This document shows positions 1 through 7,948 of a stretch of 64,000 nucleotides of DNA, piece after piece. The stretch lies in NCBI GenBank assembly GCA_025060635.1, contig JANXBN010000004.1, positions 62,001 through 126,000 on the forward strand. The letters are read 5' to 3'. Below the pieces are notes generated by a model. It saw only the letters and a list, made by a program, of their open reading frames with translations. It was not told where the DNA came from and did not search any database. Both the position numbers and the translations under genes were made by a program. How positions within the stretch are numbered: the first letter of the stretch is position 1; each line of letters opens with the position of its first letter. This stretch comes from Candidatus Kryptonium sp. Its GTDB lineage: Bacteria > Bacteroidota > Ignavibacteria > Kryptoniales > Kryptoniaceae.

Positions 1-284
1 GTTATAGAGTTGAGGACGAAGCGAGATTTGTAATTGGTGGTGATATCAGTTCAAGGGTTGTTTCATCTGTTCAAGGTGTTGGGGGAATGCTTTATACTGT
101 TGAGGCGGAATTAAACTTGTTTTTGAAAGATTTGGAAAGTGGTCAAATAGTTGGAAGTATGAGCGTTAAATCAAGAGCGGTTGGGAAAAGTGAAAAGGAT
201 GCTTATGAAAGAGCTTTGAGAGGCATGAAATTTTCAAATAAAGATCTCGTTGAAATGTTATCAAATGCGAAAATTGAAGATTAA
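1..284 (+). CDS. C-terminal end of an envelope protein (5' partial)
   Basis: The reading frame is open from position 3 and ends at a stop at 282-284, so this is the tail of a gene that begins before the window. About 93 residues are visible. They form alternating beta and alpha stretches, with a conserved-looking GQIVGSMSVKSRAVG segment followed by an alanine-rich helix. The pattern resembles C-terminal parts of FlgT/CsgG/LpoB-like periplasmic proteins, but I do not recognise the family with certainty. It lies 32 bases upstream of the LPP20 lipoprotein gene on the same strand and probably shares its transcript. An internal ATG at 87 is not a credible start because the frame continues upstream with protein-like sequence. 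Confidence 0.7.
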   Translation, partial: YRVEDEARFVIGGDISSRVVSSVQGVGGMLYTVEAELNLFLKDLESGQIVGSMSVKSRAVGKSEKDAYERALRGMKFSNKDLVEMLSNAKIED

Positions 285-316
285 AACTTAAAAACAAATT
301 AAAGGAGGGAAGTAAT

Positions 317-895
317 ATGCGCTATATTTTATCATCACTTTTGATTTTTGCAGTGTTAATTCTAATTTCGGGCTGTGGTGGACCAAAGGAACGCGTTGCA
401 GTTCCAGAAGCAACAGCTCCAGCTTGGGTTAATACTCCACCGACAGCGGTGGATGCGATTTATGCTGTCGGCGCAGCAAATGTTGGTGCAAATCCGGTTC
501 TTGCAAGAAACAAAGCTGCTGATGCCGCAAGACAAGAACTTGGCAGAATAATTCAAGTAAAAGTTAAAAGCTTGCTTGATAATTTCATGCAAGAGCATCA
601 GGAATTTGTAAACAATCAGGGAACTATAACATCTGAAGAATTTACGAGAAGCGTTAGCAGATCTGTAAGCCAGGCGACTTTGGCTGGATCTCAGATTGTA
701 GAGTTTTATTATGACAAGGATAATAAAATTTATTATGCTCTTGCGGTTTTGAGAAAGAATGACATCGTAAATGAAATAATGCGCACGATGAACGAAGCTC
801 AACGCCAGAAGAAAACAGCATTTGTTGAAATGAAAGCAGATGAAGCTCTTAAACTTCTTGACAAGGAACTTGAAAAGTGGGATTTGAGCAAGTGA
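317..895 (+). CDS. LPP20-family lipoprotein
   Basis: A 192-residue protein with a lipoprotein signal peptide: a hydrophobic stretch, then the lipobox I17-S18-G19-C20. The mature part is one LPP20-type domain, with PAWVNTPP near residue 35, IYAVGAA near 48, an alanine-rich helix where these proteins keep AAR/ARAEL, and a GSQIVEFYYD...YYALAVL ending near residues 130-150. LPP20 proteins, including flagellar FlgP, are outer-membrane-attached lipoproteins that form envelope structures. The C-terminal tail (EALKLLDKELEKW) is nearly repeated in the protein at 1440. A strong ribosome binding site, AAAGGAGGG, lies just before the ATG. A rho-independent terminator follows, so it ends its transcript. 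Its role here is inferred to be structural. Confidence 0.85.
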   Translation: MRYILSSLLIFAVLILISGCGGPKERVAVPEATAPAWVNTPPTAVDAIYAVGAANVGANPVLARNKAADAARQELGRIIQVKVKSLLDNFMQEHQEFVNNQGTITSEEFTRSVSRSVSQATLAGSQIVEFYYDKDNKIYYALAVLRKNDIVNEIMRTMNEAQRQKKTAFVEMKADEALKLLDKELEKWDLSK

Positions 896-912
896 TTTTG
901 GCTTGCTTGTGT

Positions 913-944
913 AAGGGTCGGGTTTATGTCCCGACCCTTTTTAG
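913..944 (+). terminator. Rho-independent terminator
   Basis: A perfect 10-base-pair stem (913-922 with 930-939) closes a 7-base loop and runs into a T-rich tract. It lies 17 bases after the LPP20 lipoprotein stop and separates that transcript from the DUF454 gene and the rest of the module. Confidence 0.92.
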
Positions 945-1071
945 TTATTTGACAAAAAACTTTTTATCCTGCCTTTAGAATTTTGCGATTTTAAAACTTG
1001 TTTTGCTTTAACTTTTGAATTTTGACAAGATTGAGATAAATTAAAGAAAAAATGTTGATGGCAGTAAAGTA

Positions 1072-1443
1072 ATGAATGAACTTTATCGGCTTGTTTTGAT
1101 AGGGCTTGGTTTTATCTTCGTTGGGCTTGGTATACTTGGGGCTTTTTTGCCAATTCTTCCGACGACCCCTTTCTTGCTTTTAGCTGCCGCATGTTTTGCC
1201 CGAAGCTCAAAAAAATTTTACAACTGGCTGTTAAACCATAAAATTTTTGGCTCTTATATAAGGAATTATCGTGAACAAAGAGGAATTACACTGCGAGGCA
1301 AGATATTATCTCTTTCAATTATGTGGCTCGTTATGGGATATACAGCGTTTTTCGCTGTTTCAAATATATTCGTCAGTATAATAATAATTTTGATCGGTCT
1401 CGGAGTCACAAAACATATACTTTCATTAAAAACGATAAAATGA
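1072..1443 (+). CDS. DUF454 (YbaN-like) inner-membrane protein
   Basis: A 123-residue membrane protein with the recognisable DUF454 pattern: an N-terminal hydrophobic hairpin containing GLGILGAFLPILPTTPFLLLA, then CFARSSKKFYNWLLNHKIFG, and two further membrane segments toward the C terminus. YbaN homologues are small inner-membrane proteins with no established biochemical function. The stop codon overlaps the start of the next gene by four bases (ATGA), which suggests translational coupling to the tandem LPP20 protein. The link between the two is otherwise unexplained. The family call is firm and the function unknown. Confidence 0.88.
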   Translation: MNELYRLVLIGLGFIFVGLGILGAFLPILPTTPFLLLAAACFARSSKKFYNWLLNHKIFGSYIRNYREQRGITLRGKILSLSIMWLVMGYTAFFAVSNIFVSIIIILIGLGVTKHILSLKTIK

Positions 1444-2399
1444 AAAATCTCGCTTTTACACTTTCAATTTTTTTAACATCTACACTTTTATCACAACAAC
1501 CTACTTGGCTTTCCCTTCTTCCACAATCAAAGGATTATTTATACGCTGTTGGAGCTTCCTCTCCGTATTTTTATCCTGAGACAACCAAATCCAAAGCAAT
1601 TGAAGACGCAATTCTTGAGCTCGCCCGAACAATTGAGGTTGGAGTAAAAGTAAGGCAAATTAATTGGTTTGAAGATACAGGGAGTTTATTTTCTGGGCTT
1701 TCTCACTTCGCAGAAGAGTATGAAGAGGAGATTGATTCCGGGCTTGTTAACTTGATTAAAGCAAATTATGAATTTGTTTCTCAATGGCAGGATCCAAAAT
1801 CAAGAATTTTATATGTTTTGCTTCGTGTTCCAGTTAAAGCAATTACATCTGATACAATGTATTCAATTCCTGAAGAGTTTATTTTTGATCCTGCGCTCGT
1901 GGGGTTGAGTGCTTCGTCCGCAAGGCAACCGAGATGGGTTAATAAAATCCCTGTTTCAGATGTTGCCATTTACGCTGTCGGTGCATCTGATAGATACTTT
2001 GATCCCGCTGAAACAAGAAAAAGAGCTATTCAAAATGCTCGCGCTGAGCTTTCAAGGATTATAAGTTTGAGAATTCAATCTTTGCTTGATAATTGGGCAA
2101 CAGGTAATAAGGTTTTTGAATTAAGTTATTCAAGAAGAATTTCAAGAACTGTTTCAAGCGCGAAGTTAACAGGTTCTCAAATAGTTGGTTTCTGGGTTGA
2201 TCCCAAAACAGGTGCTAATTATGCGCTTGCCCGAATGTATAGAAAAAGTTTGATTTATCAAGTAAAACAAAACACCGTTAATGCAATAAGGCAAAACCCT
2301 CCTGATAAGTTTGTAAAGCAGGATAAGCCGATAGAAGAACTTTTAAATGAGGCTTTAAATCAACTTGACAAGGAGCTTGAAAAATTAAACAAAAAATAA
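1440..2399 (+). CDS. Secreted protein with two tandem LPP20-type domains
   Basis: A 319-residue protein with a signal peptide (residues 1-19) but no lipobox cysteine. It carries two LPP20-type domains, about residues 21-135 and 164-290. Each begins with a P-x-W motif followed by YAVGAS and an alanine-rich helix. The second is much closer to the lipoprotein at 317 (SLLDNW, LTGSQIVGF, YALARM) and shares its charged tail EALNQLDKELEKL, which points to a local duplication. I chose the ATG at 1440 because it gives a signal peptide and a 4-base overlap with the upstream stop. An in-frame start at 1323 would add 39 residues that are only the shifted frame of the DUF454 gene. Probably periplasmic or outer-membrane associated. 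Confidence 0.82.
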   Translation: MKNLAFTLSIFLTSTLLSQQPTWLSLLPQSKDYLYAVGASSPYFYPETTKSKAIEDAILELARTIEVGVKVRQINWFEDTGSLFSGLSHFAEEYEEEIDSGLVNLIKANYEFVSQWQDPKSRILYVLLRVPVKAITSDTMYSIPEEFIFDPALVGLSASSARQPRWVNKIPVSDVAIYAVGASDRYFDPAETRKRAIQNARAELSRIISLRIQSLLDNWATGNKVFELSYSRRISRTVSSAKLTGSQIVGFWVDPKTGANYALARMYRKSLIYQVKQNTVNAIRQNPPDKFVKQDKPIEELLNEALNQLDKELEKLNKK

Positions 2400-2412
2400 G
2401 GGGGAAATCAAC

Positions 2413-3312
2413 ATGAAAATTTATAAGATTTTTCTCGTTTTTATTTTAATGTCTTCTCTTCTTTTCCCGCAGGACAAAAAGATAAGCGTTGCGGTTTTGA
2501 AATTTGATGCCAAGGGGTTTGAACCAGCACAAATTGATGTCCTTGTTTCAAGGTTTAGGGTTGCTTTAAACGCAACTGGTAAATTTAATGTCCTTGAAAG
2601 GGAGAAAATAAAGGAAATTTTAATGGAACAGAACTTGCAACAAAGCGAGATCGCCGAGGGGGCAGGAGACAATGTGCAAATCGGAAAAATTCTCGGGGTT
2701 AAAGAGATTATAACTGGTGATATCGGTAAAATTGAAGAAGTTTACACAATAAATGTAAGAAGAATTAATGTTGAAACATCTGAAATCGTCCAAACCGCAA
2801 GCGCTGATTACGAGGGGAAGTTCTCGGGGCTTTTAAAAGTTATGGAGCAACTTGCAATTAAGCTTGCTGAAAATCCTTCTGAAAAACATGTAGCTTTGAA
2901 AATTGAAAATGCAAAAGCTGAAAGAGGAGAAAAACAAAATATCGTTGAGGAAAGTTTAGAAGAAGATGAAGAAGATATATTTTCTGATCTTTACAAAGAA
3001 TTCAACATAGCTAAAGATCCGTTTAAGGATAGCGAACCTCCAAAAATTGAACTTTATTACCCGGCGGTCAAAAACAATGGATATTTAAGGGTTAATAACC
3101 GTGATTTTGAGTTAAGTGGAATTGTATCGGATGAAAGTGGGATAGTTGCTGTTAAGGTAAACGGCGAACCAGCTGATATCAAAGTTGCTCTCGCTGGCAT
3201 GAATTTTTACAAGAAGCTCAAACTTAAGCGGGGAAGAAATACGATTGAAATTAGCGCAACCGATCTTTATCATAATGTTGGTAAATTAACATTTACAGTG
3301 GAGGTAAGGTAA
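2413..3312 (+). CDS. CsgG-like envelope protein with C-terminal Ig-like domain
   Basis: A 299-residue secreted protein with a signal peptide of about 20 residues. Residues 22-155 match the CsgG/LpoB-type anticodon-binding-like fold: KISVAVLKFDAKG, then FNVLEREKIKEILMEQ, then GKILGVKEIITGDIGK. A charged acidic linker (about 165-200) leads to an Ig-like domain (about 208-299) of the kind seen in surface proteins (PPKIELYYP, GIVSDESGI, GRNTIEISATD). CsgG relatives form outer-membrane channels or act as envelope assembly factors. There is no lipobox here, so a channel role cannot be assumed. It sits 13 bases after the tandem LPP20 gene and 2 bases before the next, clearly in one operon. Confidence 0.82.
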   Translation: MKIYKIFLVFILMSSLLFPQDKKISVAVLKFDAKGFEPAQIDVLVSRFRVALNATGKFNVLEREKIKEILMEQNLQQSEIAEGAGDNVQIGKILGVKEIITGDIGKIEEVYTINVRRINVETSEIVQTASADYEGKFSGLLKVMEQLAIKLAENPSEKHVALKIENAKAERGEKQNIVEESLEEDEEDIFSDLYKEFNIAKDPFKDSEPPKIELYYPAVKNNGYLRVNNRDFELSGIVSDESGIVAVKVNGEPADIKVALAGMNFYKKLKLKRGRNTIEISATDLYHNVGKLTFTVEVR

Positions 3313-3314
3313 AA

Positions 3315-5282
3315 ATGAAAAATATAATTTTAATTCTTCTTTCGTTTGTTTTTTCAAGTTTCGTTTTCGCAAGCGAGAAACCAGCATGGATAACAACAAA
3401 AAAACATCCGAGGTATCCAGAACGACTTTATATTCTGGGGGTTGGTGCAGCGAAGAAGACGAAGAATAAACTTGAAGATATTCAAAAAGCAAATAACGAG
3501 GCATTTGCCGATATTGTCAAACAGATCAGGGTCACTGTCGCCTCAAAATCGGTCGTTGAGCAAATGGAAGTAATAGCAGGTAAAAAAGTTGAATCCATTG
3601 AACGCGCATCTGCTGAACTTCAAGTTACAAGTGAACTAAAAATCGGTGGGCTAAAGATCGTTGAGACATATTTTGATGACGATGACGATATTTATTATTC
3701 GCTCGCTGTCCTTGATAGAGAGACAGCTGGGAAAGAGCTCAAAGATATGCTTAATCAGTTTCACAATGGATATTCTAAAAATTTTGAACTCGCAAGAAAC
3801 AATATTATTAGAGGAAACATTTATCAGGCGTTGTTAAATTTGGCTGAATCTTACAAAAACATCCCACCATACAATGATATACTCCCGCTTTATAGATTTA
3901 TCACGAGACCACTTGCTGAATCCGATCTTGGAAACGAATGGAAAGTTGCGGACGCACTTTTGACGGCCGAAATTAAATCCATTGCTCAAGATTTATTTTC
4001 AAAATTGAAGATTGAAAAACTTTCGGGTGAAGAACAAGAAGTTGTTTTCAATCAAGTTTTAAAACCGCTTTTTATCAAAGTCGTTTACATTGATGATGGA
4101 AAGAGCTATCCTGTCTCTGGGATTAAATTTAAATTTGCGTTTCAAACTGGGATTGGCAAACTCTCCGATAGAGGTACAAGCGATAATTCTGGAACAGTTA
4201 AATGTGATATATTTGAGTTAAAACCGCATCGTGAAAATTATTATGTAGTGTCCGCAAAACTTGATCTTTCTGAATTTTACATCTCTGGTCGCTACGATGA
4301 ATACGCTGAATGGAATGATCTTTTGCGAAGAAATGAAAAGGAGATAATTTTTACCTTGAGAAGAACAGCGATCACACTTGATGACAAAATTCGTGATCTT
4401 GTTTTAAATCTTGTTTCAAAGATTCCGTTGGAGCTTGAAACCGTTTCGGTTTTGCGAATTTACTATCAGGACAAATTGCCTGGCCCTATGGCTTTGTATT
4501 TAAAACAGAAAATTGAGTCAGCAATTGAACAGCACACAAAATTTTCTCTGATAAGCGATGAGCAAATAAAAATGGTCAATGTGAAGTATTCTAATCTTGG
4601 ATATTCATCGGATGAGCTCGGGACGCCAGAAAGCTTCGGTAAGTATGCAGGAAGTAAAGTCGTGATAACCGGTAACTATTGGGAAAGTGGTGATGGGATT
4701 GATTTAAATTTGAAAGCAACAGATGTTTTAAGAAAAATTGTATTGTCAACCGCAAATGTCAATATCCCAAGGTCTTTTCTTCCAAACATTCCACTCGTGC
4801 CTGAAAACTACAATCCGAAGGTTGACGACGAGATTATAAAATCTGAAAGAAAAGGCGAGGATTTAAAAGTTGAAGTTTGGGTTGACAGACCAGATGGAAT
4901 TTATTATGAAGGCGACTCAATTAGAATTTTCGTTAGAGCGAATAAAGATTGCTATATCCAACTTGTATATTACGATGCGCACGGCAATGCAATACTTGTC
5001 TTCCCACATAAAATGGAATGGAATAATAAAATTGAAGGTGGAAAAATTTATAGGGTTCCCGGAAACTTTGTTATTGAACCACCATTTGGGCGGGAGATAC
5101 TGAAGGTTTTTGCAAGTGAGAAACCTTTCCCTTTGCCAACGGGGCGGGAGTACTCTGGTTTAATTTTAATTGAAAATCCCAATTTGTACGCATCTAAAGT
5201 TCGCGGAATTGGATTGAAAACTCAGGATTATTCCGGTGGTTATGCTGAGCATAGCGTTGTAATCACAACTTTAAAGAAATAA
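3315..5282 (+). CDS. LPP20-type / DUF4384 multidomain envelope protein
   Basis: A 655-residue secreted protein with a signal peptide cleaved near residue 20. Residues 22-140 are an LPP20-type domain (KPAWITTKK, LYILGVGAA, IYYSLAVLDRET). The middle (about 160-350) is unassigned. Residues 375-490 look like a CsgG/FlgO-type domain (LRIYYQDKLPG, KVVITGNYWESG). Residues 517-605 match DUF4384 (EVWVDRPDGIYYEGDSIRI, CYIQLVYYDAHGNAILVFP). DUF4384 is often found fused to or next to caspase-like proteases, and the next gene is one. It follows the CsgG-like gene by two bases. Probably periplasmic or at the outer membrane, with a scaffold role inferred from domain content. Confidence 0.78.
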   Translation: MKNIILILLSFVFSSFVFASEKPAWITTKKHPRYPERLYILGVGAAKKTKNKLEDIQKANNEAFADIVKQIRVTVASKSVVEQMEVIAGKKVESIERASAELQVTSELKIGGLKIVETYFDDDDDIYYSLAVLDRETAGKELKDMLNQFHNGYSKNFELARNNIIRGNIYQALLNLAESYKNIPPYNDILPLYRFITRPLAESDLGNEWKVADALLTAEIKSIAQDLFSKLKIEKLSGEEQEVVFNQVLKPLFIKVVYIDDGKSYPVSGIKFKFAFQTGIGKLSDRGTSDNSGTVKCDIFELKPHRENYYVVSAKLDLSEFYISGRYDEYAEWNDLLRRNEKEIIFTLRRTAITLDDKIRDLVLNLVSKIPLELETVSVLRIYYQDKLPGPMALYLKQKIESAIEQHTKFSLISDEQIKMVNVKYSNLGYSSDELGTPESFGKYAGSKVVITGNYWESGDGIDLNLKATDVLRKIVLSTANVNIPRSFLPNIPLVPENYNPKVDDEIIKSERKGEDLKVEVWVDRPDGIYYEGDSIRIFVRANKDCYIQLVYYDAHGNAILVFPHKMEWNNKIEGGKIYRVPGNFVIEPPFGREILKVFASEKPFPLPTGREYSGLILIENPNLYASKVRGIGLKTQDYSGGYAEHSVVITTLKK

Positions 5283-5302
5283 AAAATTTGGAGGAGATAT
5301 CT

Positions 5303-6802
5303 ATGAAATCCAAAATTTTTACTTTAACCTTCATTACGCTCATTTTCCTCACATTTTCTTTTTCACAACAATCAGGTTATAGAAAAAGTTGGGCTTTGAT
5401 AATTGGAATCAATGAATATCAAAGTTTGCCACCATTAACTGGAGCCGTCAAAAGTGCTAAGATGATTCGCGAAAAATTAGTAAGAGAATTTGGCTTTGAA
5501 GCTGAAAATGTAATTGAACTTTACGATGATCACGCAACGAGGGAAAATATACTGAAAGCGTTTGATAGATTGATGGACCCAAAAAGAATTGGAAAAGATG
5601 ATAGAGTTCTGATTTATTTTGCTGGGCATGGGGTTACGAGAACAGTTGGCGGTAAGGATAAAGGTTATATCATGCCAGTTGATGGTGTGATGGAAAAATT
5701 TGCAAGCACAGCTATTTCAACGGATCAGCTTCATGAATTTCAAGAAGCAATACCTGCAAAGCATGTTTTCTTTGCAATGGATGCTTGTTATAGTGGGACG
5801 ATTTTTACGCGTGGCATAGGATTAAGGGAAAGTATTCCTACCTCAAGATCAGAAGCTATTGCACAGTTTACATCTAAAAGCGCAAGGGTTGCGATAACTG
5901 CCGGAGGGAAAGATGAACAGGTTGTTGATTTAGCTGATCAAGGAATAAGTGTTTTTGCTTTTTATTTTTTGCGTGGTCTTGATGGAGAATCTGATCTTAA
6001 TCGTGATGAGGTTATAACTTCAAGCGAGCTTGCTGATTATATTGCTAAAAATGTCAGATTTAGGGCACCTCAAAATCCACAATATGGGAAATTGCCTGGC
6101 GACGATGGCGGTGAATTTATATTTGTTCGCTCAGCATTTGTATCCGTAGAGCAAAAGGAACAAGAGAAACAACCTGATGTTGTCGCGCGACCACTCCAAC
6201 CGCAGGGTGAAAGAAAACCTCAGGGAAGAGTTGTTGAGAGAAGGTTGGAAAAAGAAAAACAAAAAATATATTGGCTCTACGCTTTCGCTGGTAGGAATAT
6301 GAACTTTTATTCCATACAGGAAGAAAATGTGGTATATGAAAGCACAAGTGGGGATGGTAATCTTGTTGGAATTGGATTTGAAAGTATATTTGAGCCCTGG
6401 CTTATCCTTTCTGTAAATGCATTTTACGATCAAAAGGATGGAAACCTTAAAATTAGGGGTGGCGACATATGGAATGAAGTTAGGCTTTCATATACAGTTA
6501 CAAATTTGGTGATAAAATTGACTTCGTATAATTTTTACTCATTTTTCGGCTTAAGCCTGGGGATTAGCACCGAAATCAAGCAGACAATTAAAAGTGGAAG
6601 AGCTGTTTTAAGAGAATCTAAGATTGAAACTCCAGAATTAAGGTTAAGCGTACCGTTCGGAATTGGATATGATTTGAAGATAGGTGATTTTAAATTTTTC
6701 GCAGAGATAGGATATGATTATGGTTTAACAAATGTTGCGAAAGATGTAAAATGGCGTGTCTCATCTATGCAAATTATGTTTGGCACGAGATTGGGATTAT
6801 AA
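5303..6802 (+). CDS. Caspase-fold (C14) protease fused to a predicted beta-barrel
   Basis: A 499-residue protein with a signal peptide (about residues 1-22). Residues 28-275 are a caspase/metacaspase domain: WALIIGINEY, catalytic H109 in IYFAGHG and catalytic C162 in DACYSG. An EF-hand-like loop (DLNRDEVITSSE) lies near residues 231-242, which is seen in calcium-responsive relatives. A charged, proline-rich linker (about 285-320) joins a C-terminal part (321-499) of alternating aromatic and glycine-containing beta strands that looks like a small outer-membrane barrel. I chose the ATG at 5303 because GGAGGA lies directly before it. A TTG at 5288 is part of that ribosome binding site. Last gene of the module, followed by a terminator. 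The protease call is firm; the barrel is inferred. Confidence 0.85.
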   Translation: MKSKIFTLTFITLIFLTFSFSQQSGYRKSWALIIGINEYQSLPPLTGAVKSAKMIREKLVREFGFEAENVIELYDDHATRENILKAFDRLMDPKRIGKDDRVLIYFAGHGVTRTVGGKDKGYIMPVDGVMEKFASTAISTDQLHEFQEAIPAKHVFFAMDACYSGTIFTRGIGLRESIPTSRSEAIAQFTSKSARVAITAGGKDEQVVDLADQGISVFAFYFLRGLDGESDLNRDEVITSSELADYIAKNVRFRAPQNPQYGKLPGDDGGEFIFVRSAFVSVEQKEQEKQPDVVARPLQPQGERKPQGRVVERRLEKEKQKIYWLYAFAGRNMNFYSIQEENVVYESTSGDGNLVGIGFESIFEPWLILSVNAFYDQKDGNLKIRGGDIWNEVRLSYTVTNLVIKLTSYNFYSFFGLSLGISTEIKQTIKSGRAVLRESKIETPELRLSVPFGIGYDLKIGDFKFFAEIGYDYGLTNVAKDVKWRVSSMQIMFGTRLGL

Positions 6803-6808
6803 ATTAAA

Positions 6809-6830
6809 AGGGGCGGAAATAACCGCCCCT
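6809..6830. terminator. Bidirectional terminator between convergent genes
   Basis: An 8-base-pair G/C-rich stem (6809-6816 with 6823-6830) with a 6-base loop. T-rich sequence follows on the plus strand, and TTTTAATTT follows on the minus strand. It sits in the 30 bases between the caspase gene and the convergent gene ending at 6833, so it can stop both transcripts. Confidence 0.85.
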
Positions 6831-6832
6831 CT

Positions 6833-7948
6833 TTATTTTGTAAATATCATTTTCTTTGAATCTACGAATTCGTTGGTTATCATCCTGTAAATATATGTTC
6901 CTGAACTTACTCTTGCTCCATTTTTATCTGTTCCATCCCAAACTATGAAATGCTCGCCTGCGGGTAGCTTTTCATCAATTAAAATTTTAACTATCCTTCC
7001 AGTTATATCAAATACGGCAATCTGAACTTTTGTTTCCTTGGGGATTATAAATTTAATTGTTGTGGCTGGGTTGAATGGGTTTGGATAATTTTGTTCAAGT
7101 TTAAAGTTTATAGGATAAATATCGGTTGTGATGAGTTTAAAATTGGGGATCATTATTGTTCCGTTTGAGCTTAGGATTTCAATCTTCAAAATTTCAATAT
7201 CATCTGTGCTGTTAAATTTACCCGTTATGAAAAATATGTCACCTTCACCTGGATCAAGACCATTTGAATCTTTTGCGGACAAATTGATATAAACAAAATC
7301 GTTTTTTATCTCGTAATTCATTTTCATAAATCCGGCGCTTCTTGGCATAAGTGAAGCAAATTCAGCAACTGAACCATTTTTGAGCTTAAACTCAACTGAA
7401 AGTTTTTTTACTCGCTCGCTATTTTTTAACCAGACGATAATTGATGAATAACTAATGTTAAATTTTATCCCTGCATCCTTATTTTTCCCATCTTCAAGTT
7501 TAAATGTTAATCCAAGCGCTGTTGCATTTAGCTTCCGAGCTTTCGGGGCTATCATAAGCAGGTTTTCAAAATTTATACTTACGCTGTCATTCTGATTGTA
7601 GTTTAAAGTTTTAAATTTTATCTTCGCAATTGTCGTTTTTCCGGGTTTGAATTCATGTCCTGCGCTTGCAAAGAAGATAAAGTTAGTTGTAACGCTATCG
7701 GGAGAGTAATATTTAAATAAAAGGTCGTTTCTTGAAACAATGATCGTATCAAGTTTGATAATCGCCTTACTTAATTTTAAAGTTGCCTGTATTCCTGCAA
7801 CTGTATCGGCGTTTGAGAGGACAAGATTTATTTCTATGTTTTGTGAGCTTGATATATCATTTTTTTCTAAATACAGTAAATTTTGAGCATTTATCAGGGA
7901 AACGGCAATTGCTATCATAACGATTATGTTGAAAATTCTTTTAAGCAT
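6833..7948 (-). CDS. Secreted cohesin-like protein with T9SS sorting domain
   Basis: A 371-residue protein with a signal peptide (about 1-21, ending INAQ). Residues 25-150 resemble a cohesin-type beta-sandwich (VAGIQATLKLSKAIIKLD, FFASAGHEFKPGKTTIAKIKF), followed by a second beta-rich part. The last 90 residues are a type A T9SS sorting domain: LEQNYPNPFNPATTIKF, then VFDITGRIVKIL, GEHFIVWDGTDKNG and GTYIYRM. It should be exported by Sec, then secreted and anchored by T9SS. The cohesin-like assignment is tentative and the sorting domain is clear. It stands alone, convergent with the caspase operon and divergent from rsgA. Confidence 0.8.
   Translation of the reverse strand: MLKRIFNIIVMIAIAVSLINAQNLLYLEKNDISSSQNIEINLVLSNADTVAGIQATLKLSKAIIKLDTIIVSRNDLLFKYYSPDSVTTNFIFFASAGHEFKPGKTTIAKIKFKTLNYNQNDSVSINFENLLMIAPKARKLNATALGLTFKLEDGKNKDAGIKFNISYSSIIVWLKNSERVKKLSVEFKLKNGSVAEFASLMPRSAGFMKMNYEIKNDFVYINLSAKDSNGLDPGEGDIFFITGKFNSTDDIEILKIEILSSNGTIMIPNFKLITTDIYPINFKLEQNYPNPFNPATTIKFIIPKETKVQIAVFDITGRIVKILIDEKLPAGEHFIVWDGTDKNGARVSSGTYIYRMITNEFVDSKKMIFTK

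Follow-up and report, generated by a model that had tools for sequence, protein, structure and literature searches.

A conserved, exported LPP20/LpoB-type gene block with a caspase in Candidatus Kryptonium and its relatives

The closest known system to the locus described here is a group of genes in Helicobacter pylori in which the lipoprotein Lpp20 (HP1456) is encoded beside the LpoB homologue HP1457 and HP1454, an exported three-domain protein that begins with an LPP20-like domain; FlgP and FapH are interaction partners of HP1454 and HP1456 (PMC11756786, PMC11394524). The SHS2 fold is common to LPP20, FlgP, and FlgT, and domains of this type build discs in FlgP (PMC12222027). What caspases do in bacteria has long been an open question, mostly discussed in terms of cell death or defence. 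In the available portions of two surveys of prokaryotic caspases, DUF4384 accompanies cyanobacterial orthocaspases (PMC7475262), and OmpA and cell-surface genes occur in some metacaspase operons (PMC3501461); the composition reported here is shown in neither portion. We analyzed a block of nine genes at the start of a 64,000-nucleotide stretch of Candidatus Kryptonium DNA (the window), which encodes LPP20 proteins, CsgG- and LpoB-like domains, DUF4384, and an exported caspase. Each part is known, but that they recur together with an exported caspase appears not to have been described before, as a preliminary description of this stretch had supposed: the open-access literature searched yielded no paper that brings LPP20, CsgG, and caspase together.

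The block reads, 5' to 3', A-B-C-D-hairpin-DUF454-E-F-G-H-hairpin, with all genes on the forward (+) strand (open reading frames and Pfam). The genome (G000) comprises 2.5 Mb in 154 contigs and is 97% complete; the window spans G000:C4:62001-126000 and cuts the block, which begins ~4 kb before the window start (locus L005). Reading upstream recovered A, B, and most of C and excluded a window-edge artefact as the source of the observation. Gene A (C4:57957-59609, 550 amino acids) and gene B (C4:59687-60919, 410 amino acids) lie outside the window. A joins an N-terminal part without assignment to an outer-membrane beta-barrel (OMP_b-brl, 31 bits), and B is a DUF6175 protein (38.6 bits), this family being its sole real match in a Pfam scan at relaxed thresholds. 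Gene C (G000:C4:60941-62284, 447 amino acids) carries an LPP20 domain (51 bits) along with Ig-like/unknown domains; it starts 1,060 bases before the window, and its 3' end occupies window positions 1..284, where it is read as an open frame at 3-284. Two intrinsic-terminator-like hairpins, one after D (913..939, +, 10 pairs with a T-rich tail; L005 7913-7939) and one after H (6809..6830, +, 8 pairs; L005 13809-13830), suggest two likely transcription units, A-D and DUF454-H. The DUF454 gene (1072..1443; 144 bits) encodes a small membrane protein of the YbaN type and stands first in the second unit, to which it was assigned because of its 4-base overlap with E and its unchanged position in every genus relative (5/5). 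The gaps E-F, F-G, and G-H measure 13, 2, and 20 bases, in agreement with the tight spacing of 2-20 bases first noted for 1440-6802.

Pfam bore out the four LPP20 domains initially assigned to three proteins (one in D, two in E, one in G), and C carries a fifth. Gene D (317..895, 192 amino acids; LPP20, 37 bits) encodes a lipoprotein with its lipobox cysteine at residue 20; among its homologues across the class, G19 and C20 were invariant in 15/15. Gene E (1440..2399, 319 amino acids) matches LPP20 over two stretches (51 bits). Gene F (2413..3312, 299 amino acids) consists of a CsgG/LpoB-superfamily domain, an acidic linker, and a C-terminal Ig-like domain according to Pfam. Its CsgG score of 34.5 bits exceeds the cut-off of 20.8 and covers profile positions 44-98 of 210 only, a remote family match. 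No other protein of the genome matched CsgG, and none gave a better LpoB match than F, although the LpoB scores of F (19.1-20.5 bits) fall below the cut-off of 22.3; F further scored 28.8 bits against Glucodextran_B and below the cut-off against DUF3280. No lipobox cysteine is present, as the leader MKIYKIFLVFILMSSLLFPQ contains no cysteine.

Gene G (3315..5282, 655 amino acids) is the LPP20-DUF4384 protein recognized at the outset. Pfam, AlphaFold2, and Foldseek together delineate an LPP20 domain (3381-3716, 44 bits), a helical/Ig-like region, an LpoB/CsgG-like domain (~4377-4814), and DUF4384 (4902-5126, 66 bits). An AlphaFold2 model built from six sequences had a mean predicted local distance difference test (pLDDT) score of 76 and a predicted template-modelling (pTM) score of 0.51. 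The top Foldseek matches of the middle domain were the LpoB C-terminal domains 4q6l (E 6e-6, TM 0.68 on target length) and 4q6z, and an LpoB-like fold is predicted for it. TolB, HP1454 (4kzs), GNA1162 (4hrv, TM 0.55), and Tip-alpha (2wcr) came next among the fold matches of the model; FlgT (3w1e) and the Vibrio flagellar LPHT ring matched weakly. In the LPP20/FlgP-type family, ring formation accompanies an insert that separates the SHS2 helix from the second strand (PMC12222027). The model places ~33 residues with two short strands (residues 75-107) at this position, a suggestive resemblance to the ring-forming insert in a model of middling confidence. Profiles of A, B, D, F, and G searched against solved structures gave no convincing match.

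Gene H (5303..6802, 499 amino acids) encodes a signal peptide, a caspase C14 domain (5387-5983), a variable linker, and a C-terminal region read as an outer-membrane beta-barrel (~6260-6799). Like other prokaryotic caspases (metacaspases/orthocaspases, C14), H scores well above the Pfam cut-off for Peptidase_C14 (63.9 bits versus 21.4), and it also matched metacaspase-1 structures (E 1e-7). The catalytic motifs FAGHG (His codon 5627-5629) and MDACYSG (Cys codon 5786-5788) are invariant in the H proteins of the genus, and the His-Cys dyad was present in 18/18 caspases of the examined neighborhoods. The catalytic residues of H are in place, and proteolysis itself is predicted. Within the genus, mean identity is 86% for the caspase domain, 48% for the linker, and 52% for the barrel, a pattern that would reflect strong constraint on the enzyme and fast change where surface exposure is expected. 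The barrel call rests on this fast divergence and on C-termini such as RYGF, which is frequent in barrels and ends the H homologues of two relatives; in L039, the barrel is largely masked as N. This barrel probably anchors H in the outer membrane. Unlike the caspases in the surveys, H is exported, fused to this probable barrel, and set in an LPP20/LpoB-type cluster. Because the dyad is intact and the gene is linked to the others, control of the module by a protease, as originally proposed, is plausible and no more. The genome encodes a second exported caspase, of 770 amino acids with four PEGA repeats (G000:C5:158759-159448; L006:1375-3687), which is unlinked to LPP20 genes.

Export signals are shared by most of the block. 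In A, B, C, E, F, and H, a hydrophobic leader is followed by Gln, as in VSYA|QKNLP (B) and SFS|QQSGY (H), and the leader of G ends VFAS|EKP. In Bacteroidota, Gln follows the cleavage site of signal peptidase I substrates destined for export (PMC10653852), and the leader-Gln pattern of the six proteins fits this Q-rule.

A search for the same gene order in related genomes found the neighborhood conserved. All five Kryptonium-type genomes compared (L005, L039, L040, L041+L042, and L043) hold all nine genes in identical order, the block being divided over two contigs in one of them. The genes upstream of A differ among the five, and the block itself is therefore what is conserved. In Thermokryptus, F-G-H occur on a short contig (L061). 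A profile of G found matches, at least partial, in 82/391 genomes of the class from 42 genera, and full-length G occurs only in the genus and in a handful of order relatives. When 40 neighborhoods were scanned with our own models of each domain, the parts proved to be reused in rearranged subsets throughout the class and, in some genomes, elsewhere in the phylum. In L044, from the same order, a TPR-caspase, full-length G, a CHASE2-cyclase, and an M48-SH3 peptidase follow one another. L088, from another family, encodes a caspase with Ig, an Ig protein, D, E, G, a small barrel, a WD40-CsgG protein, C, a CHASE2-cyclase, and an M48 peptidase. Shorter versions comprise D, E, two unknowns, G, and caspase (L090); G, D, an unknown, and caspase (L094); and G adjoining caspase (L102 and L103). 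A CHASE2-cyclase and an M48 peptidase, often with SH3, recur beside these LPP20 genes (L044, L045, L052, L088, and L089). Adjacent B and C genes that stand apart from G are conserved in another of the phylum's families (L115:9517-12221, L117:8426-11105, L123:5210-8015, and L124:9315-12016), with A nearby in L117; the Kryptonium block therefore joins two sub-modules.

Linkage was quantified from matches in 119 class genomes by counting pairs within 6 kb against uniform placement. DUF4384 and caspase were this close in 19 of the 28 genomes holding both (0.25 expected), 14 of them outside the genus. The corresponding counts were 7/9 for LPP20-CsgG (0.17 expected), 6/14 for LPP20-DUF4384 (0.22 expected), and 5/12 for LPP20-caspase (0.37 expected), with only one of the last outside the genus. 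LPP20 pairs are undercounted because our own models find diverged copies of D and E that escape the Pfam LPP20 model. For CHASE2, whose counts draw on part of the genomes only, proximity to LPP20 was seen in 9/16 genomes (0.50 expected) and to DUF4384 in nine genomes. Chance is excluded as the cause of the clustering because the order is kept in five genomes and the clustering lies far above random expectation.

Order relatives supply a further link, to LpoB, the activator of the peptidoglycan synthase PBP1B. Eight of them carry a clear LpoB gene (137-150 bits) within an LPP20 cluster (G007, G018, G028, G048, G057, G105, G112, and G129, the last placed in such a cluster via a neighboring G-profile match). 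Where read, these clusters contain D, an E-like protein, a ~450-amino-acid protein, and an LPP20 protein; those ~450-amino-acid proteins that were tested had no Pfam match. LPP20 proteins also surround LpoB and the ~450-amino-acid protein, without a caspase, in L045, L047, L050, L051, L053, and L125, from order relatives and one phylum relative. Envelope neighbors in relatives include the M48-SH3 peptidase and, in L054, an MltC-type lytic transglycosylase and a BamB-like propeller. Because the middle domain of G matches LpoB best and genuine LpoB genes occur within LPP20 clusters in order relatives, the LpoB/LPP20 group is, on profile and model comparisons, a better placement of the block than FlgO/FlgP/FlgT. 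The resemblance to LpoB has its bounds: F lies below the LpoB cut-off, F and G lack a lipobox, and any synthase activation by them is putative. As in H. pylori, an Lpp20-type lipoprotein accompanies LpoB-type and LPP20-like exported proteins, and HP1454 and Tip-alpha are among the fold matches of G, whereas caspase, DUF4384, barrel proteins, and DUF6175 have not been reported there.

We propose, with a probability of about one-half, that the block encodes a non-flagellar, outer-membrane-associated scaffold of the LPP20/LpoB kind with an outer-membrane-tethered caspase, serving envelope upkeep or stress response, which we consider its most likely job. Lipoprotein D, together with C and E, which are soluble LPP20 proteins, would form a periplasmic scaffold beneath the outer membrane. 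F and G would use their CsgG/LpoB-type domains as adaptors that connect this scaffold, in the manner of LpoB, with either the cell wall or the inner membrane. A would be an outer-membrane barrel, and so would the C-terminal part of H, which would keep the caspase-type cysteine protease next to the scaffold on the periplasmic side. The scaffold may monitor the condition of the outer membrane and cell wall; on disturbance, the caspase could cut an envelope or module protein. The parts, their export signals, the operon layout, the dyad, the conservation, and the linkage are read directly from sequence, and from these we infer a single complex, the adaptor role, the trigger, and the substrate. A more specific version, in which damage or a wall-to-membrane mismatch switches on the barrel-held periplasmic caspase to cleave an envelope protein, is offered tentatively; if true, caspase-type signaling would operate outside the cytoplasm without a role in cell death. 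The block suggests a non-flagellar envelope machine with a built-in caspase. An exported, probably outer-membrane-tethered caspase linked over many genera to LPP20 and LpoB/CsgG-type proteins offers a concrete setting that is testable through localization, partners, and substrate, and LPP20 proteins, mostly known from flagellar discs and as an H. pylori antigen, gain a non-flagellar context.

Several observations weigh against this proposal. The compared genomes are related and not independent, some close DUF4384-caspase pairs are fusions in one reading frame, and several families hold a small DUF4384-caspase pair apart from LPP20 genes. Signal peptides were called from hydropathy and sequence only, with cleavage sites placed by eye. 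The predicted structure of B is poor (pLDDT 43, two near-identical sequences usable). The barrel of H, at 17.6 bits against a Pfam cut-off of 27, is sub-threshold and is the weakest structural call of the block. Most caspases of other families have no recognized barrel, and outer-membrane tethering may therefore be specific to Kryptonium. Deletion of hp1456 left motility, the motor, and bacitracin resistance of H. pylori unchanged (PMC11756786, PMC11394524), and an envelope role of LPP20 lipoproteins is therefore unproven even in that species.

The same linkage data could be read as a signaling neighborhood in which DUF4384, caspase, and the CHASE2-cyclase form a stress set, while the LPP20/LpoB genes are separate and merely co-regulated, with no shared complex. 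The nine genomes with CHASE2 close to DUF4384, the nine with CHASE2 close to LPP20, and the DUF4384-caspase pair without LPP20 that is common in the class all fit this arrangement. In Kryptonium, however, the CHASE2 genes lie on contigs other than that of the block while the caspase stays with the LPP20 genes, and the single protein G contains LPP20, LpoB-like, and DUF4384 domains, physically tying both sets together. We consider such a neighborhood unlikely, though a serious contender. A CsgG-type secretion channel for a surface protein, in which the caspase would do the processing, would account for the family match of F and for the two barrels. A curli-type pore is nonetheless unsupported, because F covers only part of the CsgG profile, lacks the lipobox, and ends in an Ig-like domain; we rejected F as such a pore on these grounds, and the channel function that the preliminary description gave for CsgG is not supported for F. 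With no candidate secreted subunit in the cluster and no curli subunit genes seen, the chance that the block is an export channel is very slight indeed.

A flagellar accessory encoded away from the main flagellar loci, of the H-ring/T-ring or basal-disk type, recalls the FlgO/FlgP/FlgT-like assembly of the preliminary description. The shared LPP20/SHS2-type domains, a CsgG-class domain as in FlgO, export to the outer membrane, and the weak fold matches of G to FlgT and the LPHT ring lend it some credit, and the organism has rod/hook genes, Kryptonia being hot-spring motile heterotrophs by published description (PMC4737851). Flagellar genes near the block but outside the window were looked for: the five rod/hook matches of the genome are on contig C1, and none was found on C4. 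F gave no FlgO match (PF17680) in Pfam at E 0.1, although a relative's protein at L057:5610-6563 did. Among close relatives the two traits separate both ways, which suggests that the block is independent of flagella: G018 (100% complete) has no rod-gene match yet keeps full-length G and a caspase, and G105 has none and three LPP20 matches, whereas rod genes occur without any LPP20 match in G072, G099, and G118, diverged copies below threshold being possible there. The block lies outside the flagellar locus and does not track flagella, and a flagellar ring was rejected for these reasons; what survives of the likeness is the shared domain type, and an accessory role is quite improbable. The wider claim of a conserved, exported, non-flagellar envelope module is upheld by the export signals, the order in five genomes, and the contig's lack of rod/hook genes. 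The last alternative, a defence or programmed-cell-death system with the caspase as effector, draws on the match of H to the PADLOC 'caspase' model and on cell death being the usual proposal for bacterial caspases in the available part of one survey (PMC7475262). The caspase and its partners carry export signals, unlike known defence caspases, whose action is cytoplasmic; no sensor ATPase or other defence partner occurs in the cluster; and its position is fixed in the genus rather than sporadic. Anti-phage defence was rejected because the caspase is exported and no other module protein tested matched a PADLOC model, and we hold a defence or death role to be very improbable.

Two further observations concern the surroundings of the block. 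Directly after it, on the opposite strand (6833-7948, -), lies a gene for a protein with a FlgD-like/Por-secretion tail of the type IX cargo type. Such a protein occupies the same place in L039, L042, and L043, the genus genomes whose contig continues, and it may be unrelated to the block or a partner. Elsewhere in the genome, a weak DUF4384-like match (G000:C2:74648-74860; L009) falls in a ~2,200-amino-acid protein, possibly of the SprA type, that is common to all genus genomes.

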